A stretch of 64,000 nt of DNA from Pyrinomonadaceae bacterium. GTDB lineage: Bacteria; Acidobacteriota; Blastocatellia; Pyrinomonadales; Pyrinomonadaceae. The DNA lies in contig JACMJZ010000031.1 of the NCBI GenBank assembly GCA_014380365.1, positions 186,001-250,000 on the forward strand, in the 5' to 3' direction. The translations under genes and the position numbers were made by a program. Positions 15,280 to 32,259 of this stretch are shown here, piece after piece. The notes beneath the pieces were generated by a model. The model was not told the origin of the DNA and searched no databases. It saw only the letters and a program-made list of their open reading frames with translations. Numbering within the stretch: position 1 is the stretch's first letter; the number at the start of each line of letters is the position of its first letter.

Positions 15280-16299
15280 ATGAAAATCTACGACGAAGAA
15301 GACACTCTGTTGACGAATGCGCCCATTCCGGCACGCGACGGCGGCGGGCCGGAGGTTTCCGTGTTCCTTCCGGTTTTCAACGAAGAGCCAAACCTTCCGC
15401 CGCTACACGCAAAACTGGACGAAGCACTCAAAGCTTTGGACCGCACTGCTGAAATCATTTATGTGGACGACGGCTCGTCGGATGGAAGCCTGAAGGTTCT
15501 GCGCGACTTGGCGCGACTTGACCCGCGCGTGCGCGTGGTCGCGTTGAAGCGAAACTATGGTCAGACTGCGGCGATGGCGGCAGGAATCGACGCGGCCAAG
15601 GGTCAGGTGCTAATCCCGATGGATGCCGATCTTCAGAATGATCCGGCTGATATCGTGCGGCTGCTCGAGAAACTCGACGAAGGGTATGACGTCGTTTCCG
15701 GCTGGCGCAAGAACCGGCAGGACAAAGTTATCACCCGCAAGATCCCTTCGATGATTGCCAACCGTCTGATCTCCTGGATTGGCGGCGTGCCGCTGCATGA
15801 TTACGGCTGTACGTTGAAGGCCTATCGTCTCGAGTCGCTCTCGAGCGTCCGACTTTACGGTGAGATGCACCGCTTCATTCCCATTCTCGCTTCCTGGGAA
15901 GGCGCACGCGTGGCGGAGATACCGGTCGCGCATCATCCGCGCACAATGGGCAAATCCAAGTATGGACTCTCGCGCACGTTCAAAGTGGTCTTCGATCTGA
16001 TGACGATCAAGTTTATGGCTTCATATCAAACGAAGCCCATCTACATCTTCGGAACGTTTGGGATGCTCGCAATCGCACTTTCTTTTATAGCCGGCGTCTG
16101 GGCGACGTTTCTGAAGTTGTGGGAAGGCGTGTCGTTTATCCTGACGCCGCTGCCGGTCATCGCCGTGGTGATGTTGGCCATCGGCGTGCAGTTTTTGCTG
16201 ATGGGACTGCTGGCCGAAATGCTCGTGCGTACGTACCACGAGTCGCAGGCGAAATCGATTTATGCGGTCCGGGAAAAGATCGGATTCGAAAAACAGTGA
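15280..16299 (+). CDS. GT2 glycosyltransferase, polyprenyl-phosphate sugar synthase type
   Basis: The protein has 339 residues. The N-terminal GT-A domain shows VSVFLPVFNEEPNLPPL, IIYVDDGSSDGSLKVL, LKRNYGQTAAMAAGIDAA and the metal-binding MDADLQNDP. The C-terminus has two membrane helices (about 247-268 and 285-312). This matches the DPM1/ArnC-like group, which transfers a sugar from a nucleotide sugar to polyprenyl phosphate at the inner membrane. The GRTMGKSKYG-like segment (HHPRTMGKSKYGLSRT) is intact. The sugar is not known. Confidence 0.9.
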   Translation: MKIYDEEDTLLTNAPIPARDGGGPEVSVFLPVFNEEPNLPPLHAKLDEALKALDRTAEIIYVDDGSSDGSLKVLRDLARLDPRVRVVALKRNYGQTAAMAAGIDAAKGQVLIPMDADLQNDPADIVRLLEKLDEGYDVVSGWRKNRQDKVITRKIPSMIANRLISWIGGVPLHDYGCTLKAYRLESLSSVRLYGEMHRFIPILASWEGARVAEIPVAHHPRTMGKSKYGLSRTFKVVFDLMTIKFMASYQTKPIYIFGTFGMLAIALSFIAGVWATFLKLWEGVSFILTPLPVIAVVMLAIGVQFLLMGLLAEMLVRTYHESQAKSIYAVREKIGFEKQ

Positions 16300-16301
16300 C
16301 A

Positions 16302-16398
16302 AGTGAAGAGTGAAAAGTAACCAGTGAAGAGTGATGAGGCTCCGATCGCGCTTTGGCCCTCGGTTTTACTCATCACTCATCACTTTTCACTCTTCACT
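16302..16398. repeat. Inverted repeat of the AGTGAAGAGTG type
   Basis: AGTGAAGAGTGAAAAGT (16302-16318) and its perfect 17-bp complement (16382-16398) enclose a second pair, AGTGATGAG and CTCATCACT. The element fills the spacer between the GT2 stop and the asnB start. A fragment of the same type is near 51810. Confidence 0.8.
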
Positions 16399-27133: not shown

Positions 27134-28666
27134 TTGATTGGGAATGAAGCCGCGCGTGATTCAGGTGAGGCCGGGAATAACTTGACGGAAAAAGACGACG
27201 TGAAAAGCGGTGCAGCGAAGTTGGTCGACGCGGCTATTGTCGGATGCCTGTTCGTATTTGTGGTGTTCGCGCCGCATTCGATTGCGTTCACCCAGGGAGC
27301 ATGGCTGCTCGGGACGGCCCTGTGGCTGGTGAGATTTCTTTTCCGCCCCCGACCCCGGCTTTTCCGGACGCCCGTGGATTATCTTCTGCTTGGCTTCTTC
27401 ATTCTTAGCGGCGTTTCAGCTTTCCTCTCTTATGAGCCCACAGTGTCGATTGGAAAGCTGCGGGCGGCGAGCCTCTTCACCATTATCTATCTCTTTGCGG
27501 AAAACGTGCCGTCACTCCGCGTAGCCCGCCTCCTCGCTATTACCCTGATTTGTTCCTGTGTGTTCAGCGTCTTCTACACTGGTGGCGAACGGATCATTGG
27601 CCGAGGGGTAAAAGTCTTCGGGGTTTCTGAACAGAGTCCGTTATACAAGGTGGGAGTCCGCGATGGAGATACTCTGCTCACCTTGGACGGAACGAAGTTG
27701 CGGGACCCGCAGGATTTAGTCGACGGGTTATCAAGGGCAGAAAATCAACCGGCGACTATTGCCGGCTATCGCCATGAATTACTACCCACTTTCAAAGTGC
27801 CCAGGGGAAGTTTGCTGTCCGGCTCAACTGCGCTCGAGCAATTAGGCGTACAAAGTTGGTCGAGCGGGCGCGACTGGCGGGCGTCAGGATTGTATGGACA
27901 GTTTGTTACCTATGCTGAGGTGCTGCAGCTGGTGATCGCGCTGGCGTTAGGACTCTTCGTCAGTCTTCCATTGAAACGAAGTTGGGCGGGAATTCTGTTA
28001 CTTGTAGCCCTCGCGGGGTTCTCTTTCGCGTTACTGCTGACTTTCACTCGCGCGGCTTGGCTCGGCAGTTTCGTTTCGTCCCTCATCGTCCTGATCCTGA
28101 CAATTCGGCGGCGCACCATGCTCGTCATGGGCCTTTTGGCGATCCCCGTCATACTCGCTGGCCTTTTCATGCTTCAACAAAAGCGACAGGTAGGCTTCCT
28201 CGATCAAAAGGATGACTCTACGGTTTGGCGCACAAAGGTCTGGCGCGAAGGCGCGAGGCTGCTGGTGAGCAAACCGCGCCATTTGCTTGTGGGTATTGGA
28301 ATGGACTCGATCAAGAAACGCTGGCGTCAGTGGGGAATGTTTGATGGCGGTCGCATTCCCTGGGGCCATATGCACTCAAATCTATTGCAAATTGCCTTGG
28401 AACGCGGTTTACCGGCCTTACTCCTTTGGCTGGGATTCCTCTTCGTTTATGCGCGCACGCTCTGGCGCTCAGTTCGAAGTAGAACTAAGCGCCATTGGGT
28501 CGAGCGTGGGATTCTGTTAGGAGCGCTGGGAGGTCTGGCCGGTTTCTTGAGTTCCGGCTTGGTTCACTACAACTGGGGTGATTCAGAAGTAGTAATGGTT
28601 TTCTATCTCGTCATGGGCCTGGCTTTGGTTGTGGCGAGGCCTTCTGAAGGTAGTGCCAGCAGTTAG
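27134..28666 (+). CDS. O-antigen ligase/polymerase family protein with an embedded PDZ domain
   Basis: The protein has up to 510 residues from a TTG at 27134; a GTG at 27200 is possible. About a dozen membrane helices are seen. The Wzy_C hallmark LLTFTRAAWLGSF lies at about 300, with GHMHSNLLQIALERG near 415 (the histidine region). Between helices, residues about 155-235 form a PDZ-like fold: GVSEQSPLYKVGVRDGDTLL and LDGTKLRDPQDLVDGL. Ligases of this family normally have no such domain; it should lie in the periplasm. It closes the polysaccharide locus and probably polymerises or transfers the glycan. Confidence 0.87.
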   Translation: MIGNEAARDSGEAGNNLTEKDDVKSGAAKLVDAAIVGCLFVFVVFAPHSIAFTQGAWLLGTALWLVRFLFRPRPRLFRTPVDYLLLGFFILSGVSAFLSYEPTVSIGKLRAASLFTIIYLFAENVPSLRVARLLAITLICSCVFSVFYTGGERIIGRGVKVFGVSEQSPLYKVGVRDGDTLLTLDGTKLRDPQDLVDGLSRAENQPATIAGYRHELLPTFKVPRGSLLSGSTALEQLGVQSWSSGRDWRASGLYGQFVTYAEVLQLVIALALGLFVSLPLKRSWAGILLLVALAGFSFALLLTFTRAAWLGSFVSSLIVLILTIRRRTMLVMGLLAIPVILAGLFMLQQKRQVGFLDQKDDSTVWRTKVWREGARLLVSKPRHLLVGIGMDSIKKRWRQWGMFDGGRIPWGHMHSNLLQIALERGLPALLLWLGFLFVYARTLWRSVRSRTKRHWVERGILLGALGGLAGFLSSGLVHYNWGDSEVVMVFYLVMGLALVVARPSEGSASS

Positions 28667-29084: not shown

Positions 29085-29318
29085 TTACGGCACCATTAGA
29101 AACATGTTAAGCAGGGTTTCGAGTAAGTCGCCGTAGATGTCGCCTGCACGGCTGGTGATGTTGCCTGTACGGCTGGTGATGTTACCAGTACGGCTGGTGA
29201 TGTTGCCGGTGCGGCTTGTGATGTTACCAGTACGGCTGGTGATGTTGCCCGCAAAGGCGGAAGAGGAAATTGCCAAGGTTAAGAGGGATGCGCAAAGGAC
29301 TGATTTAGAGCGTGTCAT
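29085..29318 (-). CDS. Secreted mini-protein with five NITSR(T/A)G heptad repeats
   Basis: The 77-residue protein has a good signal peptide (MTRSKSVLCASLLTLAISSS, cut near AFA-G). The mature part is five copies of NITSR-T/A-G, followed by DIYGDLLETLLNMFLMVP, a short amphipathic helix-like tail. Mature size is about 54 residues. The ribosome site AGGAG lies 7 nt before the ATG at 29318. Third-position differences between the repeats show selection on the protein rather than simple DNA slippage. A sigma-54-like promoter lies about 115 nt upstream. I know no named family; structural, signalling or adhesive roles are all open. Confidence 0.7.
   Translation of the reverse strand: MTRSKSVLCASLLTLAISSSAFAGNITSRTGNITSRTGNITSRTGNITSRTGNITSRAGDIYGDLLETLLNMFLMVP
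29149..29253. repeat. Five 21-bp tandem repeats inside the mini-protein gene
   Basis: Units start at 29149, 29170, 29191, 29212 and 29233; on the plus strand each is CGGCTGGTGATGTT followed by a variable 7 nt. Units 2 and 4 share the end ACCAGTA, while units 1, 3 and 5 have GCC-type ends. This points to duplication by pairs. The length is a multiple of three, so the reading frame holds. Confidence 0.85.
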
Positions 29319-29434
29319 GTCAAATTCTCCTGGTGACGAGCGTTAATGGATGGTGCGCTAGGATGGGGATTGCTGCTTTGGAAACTCAATTCTCGTTCTA
29401 GCGTACCGTTAGTAACTTGTTCCCTGCTTTGTAT

Positions 29435-29450
29435 TTCAAGGCTCGTGCCA
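29435..29450 (-). promoter_or_regulatory. Candidate sigma-54 (-24/-12) promoter for the repeat mini-protein
   Basis: On the minus strand the sequence is TGGCACGAGCCTTGAA. TGGCACG is a full match to the -24 element, and the GG lies exactly 10 bp before the -12 dinucleotide. The -12 element is TTGAA rather than TTGCA, a single departure at an important base. The predicted transcript start is near 29425, leaving a leader of about 105 nt. Confidence 0.5.
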
Positions 29451-29543
29451 CAAAAAGTCTTGACCTCGTAGACTTCCTAAGTCCTTACCTCCCTAGATGT
29501 TAGCTGGCTGAACTGACTACGAGAGGGCGGCCATGATGATTCG

Positions 29544-29613
29544 ACCCAAAATGGGTAGTTCGTATACACATCGCGCCCTGAACACCGGGTAAAGGGGCAA
29601 AAATTTGAACTAC
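29544..29613. promoter_or_regulatory. Candidate activator-binding inverted repeats
   Basis: ACCC-AAAAT-GGGT (29544-29556) and the pair GTAGTTC (29555-29561) / GAACTAC (29607-29613) lie 95-180 bp upstream of the sigma-54-like site, the normal distance for enhancer-type activator sites. They could also serve the kinase gene at 29821. Evidence is position and symmetry only. Confidence 0.3.
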
Positions 29614-29820
29614 TTACGGTTGTCGAAGCGCGAAATTTGGAGTTGTTACTTTAGTATGCAGGTGTATATCCGGTATTCAGTCCCACGGTTCACAGCTAGG
29701 TCCCTCGCATTACCAACCAATAAGAGGCTAATCCGCGTCACCAGTTGATCATCTCGTGAATGCCGTACGCAGCGGCGACCGAATCTCAGAGCAGTAGTTT
29801 TCCAATCCGAGAGAGATAGA

Positions 29821-32259
29821 ATGCGACTATTACAAGGGAACTCGATTCACCCCATCGAAGCCGCGCCGCCAAGTCTAAGCGAGCACGTTCAGGCATGTTG
29901 TGGCATAGCCCGAGAAAGACTCGAAGCCGGGGACTACGATTTGGGATGTGCCGCGCTTCAGCAGTGGTGGACGATCGGCGAGTGGCCAAGACATTCCGGG
30001 ATGGAAGATCACGCTGCAGCTGAATTATTTTTCACTGCGGGCGTCCTGAGCGGTTGGGTAAGCAGTACCAGGCAAACTTATGGGGGCCAAAAACCCGCGG
30101 AGAGCCTCCTGAATGGGGCGATCGTGCTCTTCGAGCGACTGGAAGAACGAACCCGGGCGACAGAAGCTCGGATCGAGCTAGCCTGCTGCTATTACCGGCA
30201 AGGCCTCTTCGACCTGGCTCGCGAGACCGTGCGGTACGTACTACGGACGCTGTCCGATGATGAACGAGAATTAAAGGGCGTCGCCCTGATTCGGCTTGCT
30301 GTGGTTGAGGGTCGCGCCGGACGCCTGCATGACGCGCTTGGCCTGCTCAACGAGGCGGCGCCGCTCGTGAAAACATCTGGCGCGTGGACAAAGGGGCGAT
30401 TTCACCTTGAATTCGCGACCACGCTGAAGGAACTCGGAATTGCCGAAAACCGAAATGAGCACTTCGACAGGGCAATGAATCATTACCGAAATGCGCTTTC
30501 ACACTTTGAGGGGATCGGCAACCATCGTTACACAGCTGTGGTCGAGAACAACCACGGTTATTTGCTTTCCAGCCTGAAGAGATTTGATGAAGCGCAACTT
30601 CATCTCGAGCGGGCGCGCAAGCTCTTCGAGGAACTCGGGGATCAGGTGAGGCGCGCCCAGGTGGATGAAACTTTAGCGCAACTCTATGTTGCCTCTGACC
30701 AGCATGCACTAGCCCAACGTTCCATCAGCCGCGCTGTAGAGACCCTGGAGACAACTGGCGAAGAGGACTTGCTGGCTGAAGCGTTGACGACCAGTGGCTT
30801 AGTACTTTGTAAGCTTGGACGCCGTCACGAGGCCAAACCTATTCTTCATCGGGCCCGGCGCGTTGCCGAACGATGTGGGGACTACGAAGGTGCCGGCCGG
30901 CCACTGCTGATTCTGATCGATGAGCTGTGCGAGCAGTTAGGCGACGATGAGCGCCAGGAGATTGGAGCGCAAGTCAGTCGGTTACTCGCTAATTCCCAGC
31001 AAAAATCGACACGTGAACGCCTGCAGTCTTGCCTGGAACGAATTGCCGCCGCCCACGCGGAATACGAGCAACAGCGCGAGCAAGCGGTGCATGCCGAGAA
31101 AATGGCCGCGCTGGGCGAACTCTCATTTGGCGTGGCCCATAACGTTAACAATACCCTGACAGGAATTCTTGGCCGGGCGCAATTGTTGTTGCGCACTAAG
31201 GACGCGGAAAAGATCACTTCGGGAATCGAGTTGATCATAAAGAGCGCAGAAGATGGCGCACAAATTATCCGCCGCATCCAGGACTTTGCCAGGAAGCAGC
31301 CCAGCCGCAAGTTTCAGCTGATTTCCGTTGCCGAACTGATGAAAGACGTCTGCGAGATGAGCCGGCCGCGCTGGGAAGCAGGAGTCGAAGGCTCGCAGAT
31401 TCGGATGTCGCTGGTCGCCGACTGCGCCGCCTCGGTTATGGGCGATCCGGTAGAGTTGCGGGAAGTGCTTGTCAACATGATCTACAACGCCATCGACGCT
31501 ACTGGGTCAGGCGGGGAGATCCGGTTGAGTGCCCAGGAAATGGGCGGTCGCGTCGTGCTTTGCATTTCCGACACCGGCACGGGCATGACGCCGGAAGTGA
31601 AATCCCGCCTCTTCGATCCGTTCTTTACGACGAAGGGGAAGGCCGGGACGGGGATGGGCCTGGCCGTGAGCTTCGGAATCATTCGCCGACACAACGGCGC
31701 GGTCGAGGTGGAAAGCGAGCAAGGTCGGGGCACCACTTTCCGCGTTTCCTTGCCCGTGGCGACCGATGAATCGCCCAGCACGGATACGACTTCGAGACAA
31801 CTAGAGACCTCGACGGTGACGGAAAAAATCCGCGTGCTGGTGGTTGACGATGAACTTGCCGTGCGAGAAGTACTTCGCGAGTCGCTGGAAGCAGAAGGCT
31901 GTGACGTTGTAGTAGCTGAAAGCGGAGAGATGGCCCTGAAGCTTTACGACGCCGCGGAAGGCAATCTCGATGTCGTGTTCACAGATATTGGGATGCCGGA
32001 AATGAGCGGTTGGGAACTGGCAAGGGAGATCCGGAAGCGCTCGGACACCATTCCTCTCGCGATTGTCAGCGGCTGGGCCGACGCGATTAGCTGCGACGAC
32101 CGGCAAGCTATCAGCGCTGATTGGGTTGTCGCAAAGCCTTTCGACATCGAGACAATCGCCGAGATTGCAAAGGATGTAATGAAGTTGAGAAAAAGCCGTG
32201 GAAACGCAAAACACGGATCCGAGAGCAGTGATCTTCGCACGCTGTTTGGAATGAATTAA
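29821..32259 (+). CDS. Hybrid histidine kinase: TPR sensor, HisKA/HATPase, C-terminal receiver
   Basis: The protein has 812 residues. Residues about 20-400 are TPR helices (for example AENRNEHFDRAMNHYRNALSHFE). A coiled linker leads to the H-box ALGELSFGVAHNVNNTLTGI with the phosphorylated His. The ATPase boxes follow: N-box NMIYNAIDATG, G1 ISDTGTGM and G2 GTGMGLAVSFGIIRRH. The C-terminal receiver starts at about 675 (RVLVVDDE) with the acceptor Asp in VVFTDIGMPE. There is no membrane segment, so it senses cytoplasmic input, probably via the TPRs. Its stop shares TTAA with the stop of the convergent sigma-54 activator. Confidence 0.92.
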   Translation: MRLLQGNSIHPIEAAPPSLSEHVQACCGIARERLEAGDYDLGCAALQQWWTIGEWPRHSGMEDHAAAELFFTAGVLSGWVSSTRQTYGGQKPAESLLNGAIVLFERLEERTRATEARIELACCYYRQGLFDLARETVRYVLRTLSDDERELKGVALIRLAVVEGRAGRLHDALGLLNEAAPLVKTSGAWTKGRFHLEFATTLKELGIAENRNEHFDRAMNHYRNALSHFEGIGNHRYTAVVENNHGYLLSSLKRFDEAQLHLERARKLFEELGDQVRRAQVDETLAQLYVASDQHALAQRSISRAVETLETTGEEDLLAEALTTSGLVLCKLGRRHEAKPILHRARRVAERCGDYEGAGRPLLILIDELCEQLGDDERQEIGAQVSRLLANSQQKSTRERLQSCLERIAAAHAEYEQQREQAVHAEKMAALGELSFGVAHNVNNTLTGILGRAQLLLRTKDAEKITSGIELIIKSAEDGAQIIRRIQDFARKQPSRKFQLISVAELMKDVCEMSRPRWEAGVEGSQIRMSLVADCAASVMGDPVELREVLVNMIYNAIDATGSGGEIRLSAQEMGGRVVLCISDTGTGMTPEVKSRLFDPFFTTKGKAGTGMGLAVSFGIIRRHNGAVEVESEQGRGTTFRVSLPVATDESPSTDTTSRQLETSTVTEKIRVLVVDDELAVREVLRESLEAEGCDVVVAESGEMALKLYDAAEGNLDVVFTDIGMPEMSGWELAREIRKRSDTIPLAIVSGWADAISCDDRQAISADWVVAKPFDIETIAEIAKDVMKLRKSRGNAKHGSESSDLRTLFGMN

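Follow-up and report, generated by a model that had tools for sequence, protein, structure and literature searches.

The gene at 29085–29318 (minus strand) of the window, by which we mean the whole 64,000-nucleotide stretch of DNA from a Pyrinomonadaceae soil bacterium analyzed here, forms a conserved divergent pair with a neighboring gene and is not a lone orphan. It encodes a 77-aa repeat peptide with a predicted signal peptide, and its partner encodes a protein with an N-terminal TPR domain. The pairing recurs across the Pyrinomonadaceae and on several viral contigs, with peptide units that differ between loci and output domains that change behind the TPR. We propose that the peptide is probably the exported precursor of a short signal, with the divergently encoded, cytosolic TPR protein as its receptor.

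The repeat-peptide gene and its coding evidence

The peptide gene lies within a 1.15-kb gap between an O-antigen-ligase ORF (27134–28666, plus strand) and a TPR kinase gene (29821–32259, plus strand). It is 502 nt from the latter, across a shared divergent intergenic region (29319–29820) that contains conserved blocks in loci of the kinase type. The reading frame starts with ATG, preceded at 8–13 nt by the Shine-Dalgarno sequence AGGAGA (29326–29331, minus strand), and specifies, in order, MTRSKSVLCASLLTLAISSSAFA, four GNITSRT heptads, one GNITSRA heptad and GDIYGDLLETLLNMFLMVP. Residues 1–23 (29250–29318, minus strand) form a predicted signal peptide that ends in AFA, an AxA cleavage site; this assignment draws on the sequence, on conservation across the family and on an AF2 helix spanning residues 3–21. 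Cleavage there would leave 54 residues, namely the five heptads (29145–29249, minus strand), which we propose to be signal units, and a 19-residue hydrophobic tail (residues 59–77; 29088–29144, minus strand). The tail is predicted to be amphipathic from its family motif and hydrophobic moment, and AF2 places a helix at residues 59–74 with low confidence. The AF2 model as a whole (signal helix, disordered repeats, weak tail helix) has a mean pLDDT of 55 and is of low confidence. These results agree with a first-pass annotation, which had described a protein-coding gene with a good ribosome site and a secreted product of about 54 mature residues, made up of five NITSR(T/A)G heptads and a short amphipathic tail.

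At the DNA level, the array has a period of 21 and 5.4 copies, and is the top-scoring tandem repeat of the window (TRF score 165; 183 as a 42-bp unit). The five units differ from one another almost exclusively at synonymous sites (pS 0.41, pN 0.026, pN/pS 0.06), the sole amino-acid difference being T to A in unit 5. The array is thus neither fresh nor neutral, and the earlier suggestion that selection acts on the protein is borne out. An antisense ORF (29137–29346, plus strand) was rejected as merely the opposite strand of the repeat. Elsewhere in the window, short low-complexity tandem repeats of 7, 14 and 21 bp occur at 16295–16398. The neighboring O-antigen-ligase ORF (Wzy_C) has, ahead of its ligase domain, an inserted PDZ-like stretch (residues 164–205) that at E 1.6e-4 falls short of the Pfam cutoff.

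A Pfam scan of the window peptide returned no family above its cutoff, and the same was true of Pfam and NCBIfam searches with the peptide family as a whole, in keeping with the initial view that it belongs to no known family. Against the model of the PhrK-type pheromone (NF038040), the window peptide scores 13.6 bits (cutoff 35) and two family members give matches, the best at E 0.0011. A secreted, repetitive product of no known family could in principle be a structural or matrix mini-protein, or the repeat might be non-coding. We regard both as very improbable. Signal-peptide conservation, Shine-Dalgarno sites and pN/pS exclude a non-coding tandem repeat, and same-genus homologues have signal peptides and in-frame arrays with different numbers of units, the opposite of the refuting conditions that the first-pass annotation had named. 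As for a structural or matrix role, which the first-pass annotation had listed as an option, we found nothing in its favor: the peptide is short, its repeats are predicted to be disordered (at low confidence), and it is constantly tied to a signaling protein.

Pairing of the peptide with a TPR gene across the Pyrinomonadaceae

The annotation had placed the gene alone in its spacer. A search for the TPR domain across 119 Pyrinomonadaceae genomes, which found it in 45 and led to the scanning of 60 loci, gives a different picture: nearly all scanned TPR genes with upstream sequence have a divergent ORF of 50–96 aa with a signal peptide. To avoid circularity, we also searched the 119 genomes with a peptide profile, trained on TPR-adjacent peptides but blind to position. 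All 94 matches at E<1e-9 adjoin a TPR gene or fragment. Eighty-seven have a listed TPR gene no more than 1.5 kb away, and 86 of these are divergent and upstream, at a median distance of 198 nt; the remaining seven were inspected, and each adjoins a TPR homologue or fragment. Under a fixed criterion (a divergent Shine-Dalgarno sequence plus signal peptide within 520 nt), 49 of 51 TPR genes are positive versus 1 of 118 other long ORFs (Fisher p 6e-39), and we therefore reject chance neighborhood. The single positive among the controls is an ORF that reached the partner peptide of a TPR gene, while the two negative TPR genes comprise a heuristic miss (L066) and one locus where no peptide was found (L072). 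The genome of the window itself contains seven peptide–TPR pairs. We are highly confident that the peptide and the TPR protein are functionally coupled.

Some exceptions count against the signal reading. TPR genes with an N-terminal Trans_reg_C domain, which form a subclade inside the same TPR tree, have a peptide of their own in 0 of 6 cases under the fixed criterion. Conversely, a few related peptides occur without this TPR. One is a repeat peptide in the genome of the window (L085 3039–3332; C7:77562), whose divergent neighbor is an ORF containing TPR-S (PF20308) and patatin domains; we do not count this adjacency as evidence, because its homologue L171 has no TPR neighbor. Members of the Trans_reg_C subclade (for example, L018 4703–7450, L023 5529–8336 and L025 2122–4239) flank a kinase-type peptide at three loci (L018, L022, L023), where one peptide may have two receptors. 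Some loci have peptide genes in tandem; at one of them (L088 1871–2899), a single TPR regulator is preceded by three different peptide genes.

The peptides form an unnamed, fast-diverging family of predicted secreted products, 50–96 aa long, each divergent from a gene with a specific N-terminal TPR domain of about 410 aa. Members share an M-K-x-[LI]-[KR] start, an A|G-[DNTE]-[IML] motif at the cleavage site and a tail of the type [AL][LV]xLLxxVLS[LV]F, and 48 of 50 have GGAG within 20 nt of the start codon. The signal peptide and the tail are the best conserved parts. The middle is hypervariable, and consists either of multi-unit arrays (AGTITGSx x6, AGTISTT[KR] x5, AGDLGTDxx x5, SGDMGTG x4) or of one or two units plus a Pro-rich linker. 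Even same-genus homologues keep the plan and swap the units, as in GNIHGVSAN (L007), GDISGKP (L005) and GNIGSPG (L013). A paralogue at L068 has the unit GDIPTCGAP. The N-x-T-S-R-x-G pattern that the first-pass annotation had suggested searching for is therefore not the signature of the family: each unit opens with a conserved G-[DNTE]-[IML], and the remainder varies by locus. Within single genes, units are kept at the protein level. In six arrays, nonsynonymous differences between unit cores are nearly zero and pS reaches 0.7, with the differences falling at the last positions.

This pattern bears on one alternative, in which the TPR protein monitors unexported precursor in the cytosol and so reports on secretion or envelope status, with the peptide acting as a sentinel in cis instead of as a signal between cells. 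Such an arrangement would suit a cytosolic receptor with a Sec-exported partner, would require no re-import, and would account for the strong conservation of signal peptide and tail. It gives no reason, however, for several locus-specific units to be kept identical within a gene, and it has difficulty accounting for several private pairs in one genome. We consider it rather improbable.

The TPR protein, its outputs and promoter elements

The proposed receptor in the window (29821–32259, plus strand) is an 812-aa protein with the predicted order TPR, HisKA, HATPase_c and receiver, based on Pfam. H440, D722 and K772 are invariant in the homologue alignment, and a search for TM segments in this protein found none. 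Behind the TPR domain, outputs vary among homologues: kinase-REC, HTH_8 (Fis HTH), HTH_8-REC, sigma-54 AAA-HTH_8, GGDEF-EAL and Trans_reg_C. On a tree of 62 TPR domains there are at least 13 changes of output type with the peptide retained, although the output label may be wrong in a few rows where the contig end cuts the output short. Peptide and TPR are the constant core, and the output is exchangeable. It is chiefly on this ground that we link the peptide to the sensor and do not see it simply as a target of a DNA-binding output.

The main rival to the signal reading holds that the peptide is a product (for example, membrane-active, adhesive or antagonistic) regulated by the divergent TPR protein, which senses something else. 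Divergent regulator–target pairs are common, and the amphipathic tail would suit a product of this kind. Yet the pairing follows the TPR domain and not the output, and persists with kinase and GGDEF-EAL outputs; since these bind no DNA, a mere target gene fails to explain the pairing there. Moreover, the units vary by locus while the TPR remains recognizable. We judge this alternative unlikely overall, but the most serious of those considered.

Upstream of the peptide gene in the window is a putative sigma-54-like element, TGGCACGAGCCTTGA (GG-N10-GA; 29436–29450, minus strand), that is common to kinase-type loci. There, an element of the type TGGCAC-N5-TTGA precedes the peptide in 6 of 6 loci by pattern and in 7 of 7 by eye in the alignment; it recalls sigma-54, except that -12 has GA in place of GC. 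None was found in the other 44 loci, and we reject it as a general feature of the family. Among non-kinase loci, 23 of 43 contain CTTGCAA/TTGCAAG, compared with a shuffle maximum of 8. These operator-like sites lie about 80–190 nt 5′ of the peptide start (for example, at L046, L054, L055 and L058), some of them doubled with a spacing of 10–13 nt, and suggest local regulation, possibly feedback. A regulated product would account for their presence in about half of the non-kinase loci just as readily as feedback would, and in this respect the sites count against the signal model.

The TPR sensor domain (residues 1–421; 29821–31083, plus strand) is modeled by AF2 as a confident all-helical superhelix (pLDDT 88.8, pTM 0.82). 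Its top structural match is LGN (Z about 30), followed by, among others, NprR (Z 27.0, rmsd 5.0, 333 aligned), RapJ-CSF (Z 27.0, rmsd 4.9, 326 aligned), phi3T Rap and RapF-PhrF. Among solved TPRs, those closest in sequence are engineered consensus TPRs and that of kinesin light chain, the best natural one being kinesin light chain 1 (E about 1e-8); matches to RapI (E 0.014) and RapJ (E 0.05) are weak and at the level of the TPR. Over about 60 homologues, N244 is invariant and N243, T324 and T284 are 92–98% conserved. In RapJ, the pheromone backbone is held by a conserved Asn225 (PMC3601965), which we compare with N244 without implying position-by-position correspondence. The modeled fold thus resembles peptide-binding superhelices (LGN, Rap, NprR), but a shared fold alone shows no function. 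Indeed, TPR superhelices are generic and LGN outscores Rap, which weighs against the signal model.

Phage contigs, the proposed signal model and known systems

Within a sample of 297 Acidobacteriota genomes, the TPR family occurs only in Pyrinomonadaceae; other phyla were covered by one named-genome scan, limited to kinase motifs. The family also extends to five IMG/VR contigs, all five of which carry the divergent peptide as well. In L180, the pair is surrounded by genes for tail sheath, major head, minor head, Mu-type portal and terminase, and in L181 a portal gene adjoins it. An integrase lies downstream of the TPR gene in L182, and a CI-like repressor adjoins the pair in L183 and L184. No structural genes were found in the annotated parts of L182–L184, so they may be proviruses or mobile elements of another kind. 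The TPR protein beside the repressor in L183 (9968–11818) has a C-terminal part with no Pfam match (neither HTH_8 nor AAA). A tblastn search of reference phage genomes with a phage TPR gave no match. Carriage by phages is less expected of a regulated product, and supports the signal model, as Bacillus phages carry Rap-Phr.

The first-pass annotation had named signaling among its options, and the pairing with a TPR regulator makes this the likelier reading. In the model that we favor, Sec would export the precursor, with cleavage after AFA, and proteases would cut the array of each precursor into several short units based on G-[ND]-I-x-x-x-x. These units would return to the cytosol, possibly via an Opp-type importer, where the concave TPR groove would bind them and thereby change the output activity (here, that of a histidine kinase with receiver). 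Control would accordingly run from peptide to TPR protein, and the system may serve in sensing cell density or in phage decisions. Since each locus combines a unit sequence and a TPR that are particular to it, several private channels could coexist in one genome. One caveat is the Gram-negative envelope, which leaves the peptide two routes: passage across the outer membrane or action from within the periplasm. Opp-type binding proteins are present in 119 of 119 genomes of the family, with or without the peptide–TPR system; being ubiquitous, they prove nothing for the model, and we rejected the importer as a discriminating marker.

The closest parallel is with the RRNPPA systems of Bacillota (Rap-Phr, NprR-NprX, PlcR-PapR, Rgg-SHP, AimR-AimP), which, like the system proposed here, have a small secreted propeptide encoded next to a cytosolic TPR receptor, several paralogous pairs per genome and carriage by phages. 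The TPR model matches NprR and Rap at Z 26–27, and propeptides in both may be multi-unit: some Phr propeptides contain 1–4 pheromone copies (PMC11343458), and members of the family here contain up to six units. Adjacency holds in the window pair and in 94 of 94 blind matches, an AxA-type export signal is predicted throughout the family, and Pfam, AF2, the fold match and the lack of a TM segment point to a cytosolic TPR receptor of the peptide-binding type. The differences are nonetheless substantial. The host is a member of the Acidobacteriota (Pyrinomonadaceae), and not of the Bacillota or one of their mobile elements; no sequence match to an RRNPPA member across the receptor is significant; outputs include histidine kinase-receiver, sigma-54 AAA-HTH_8 and GGDEF-EAL; the genes are divergent; and the precursor ends in an amphipathic tail. 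RRNPP_detector expects a receptor of 250–500 aa (PMC10075063), compared with 812 aa here and about 450–900 aa among paralogues. Our best reading is that the system would work like RRNPP quorum sensing, by analogy. We do not claim homology or RRNPPA membership, since lineage and receptor length fall outside the published criteria (PMC10075063) and, among Rap, Rgg, NprR, PlcR, PrgX and AimR receptors, the only sequence matches are the weak ones to RapI and RapJ.

Two further comparisons are instructive. As with phage Rap-Phr and arbitrium (AimR-AimP), a TPR–peptide pair is found on phage contigs, in some cases near an integrase or a CI-like repressor; here, however, the proposed receptor family is different, the outputs are of the sigma-54 or Fis type, and reference phages have no match to the TPR. 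LGN and kinesin light chain, the best structural and the best natural sequence match, respectively, bind linear peptides in the TPR groove, but are scaffold and cargo adaptors, not signal receptors.

Our literature search found no open-access paper (preprints were outside its scope) describing this peptide–TPR system, and what it found on intracellular TPR–peptide quorum sensing covers Bacillota only. That the pairing recurs across the Pyrinomonadaceae and also on some phage contigs suggests an undescribed peptide-signaling system outside Gram-positive bacteria. More tentatively, it is possible that this is native peptide communication of Acidobacteriota and their phages: the first TPR-receptor/secreted-propeptide signaling outside Bacillota, independent of RRNPP, with multi-unit propeptides, locus-specific codes and a modular TPR driving kinases, sigma-54 activators, Fis-type regulators or c-di-GMP enzymes, and with an arbitrium analogue in temperate phages near the lysogeny module. 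Such a system would raise the question of how peptides recross the outer membrane to a cytosolic sensor, and its many ready-made ligand–receptor pairs would serve the study of specificity evolution. For the Acidobacteriota, a Gram-negative phylum that is abundant in soil but poorly understood, it would also be the first candidate for a language between cells (and between phages).
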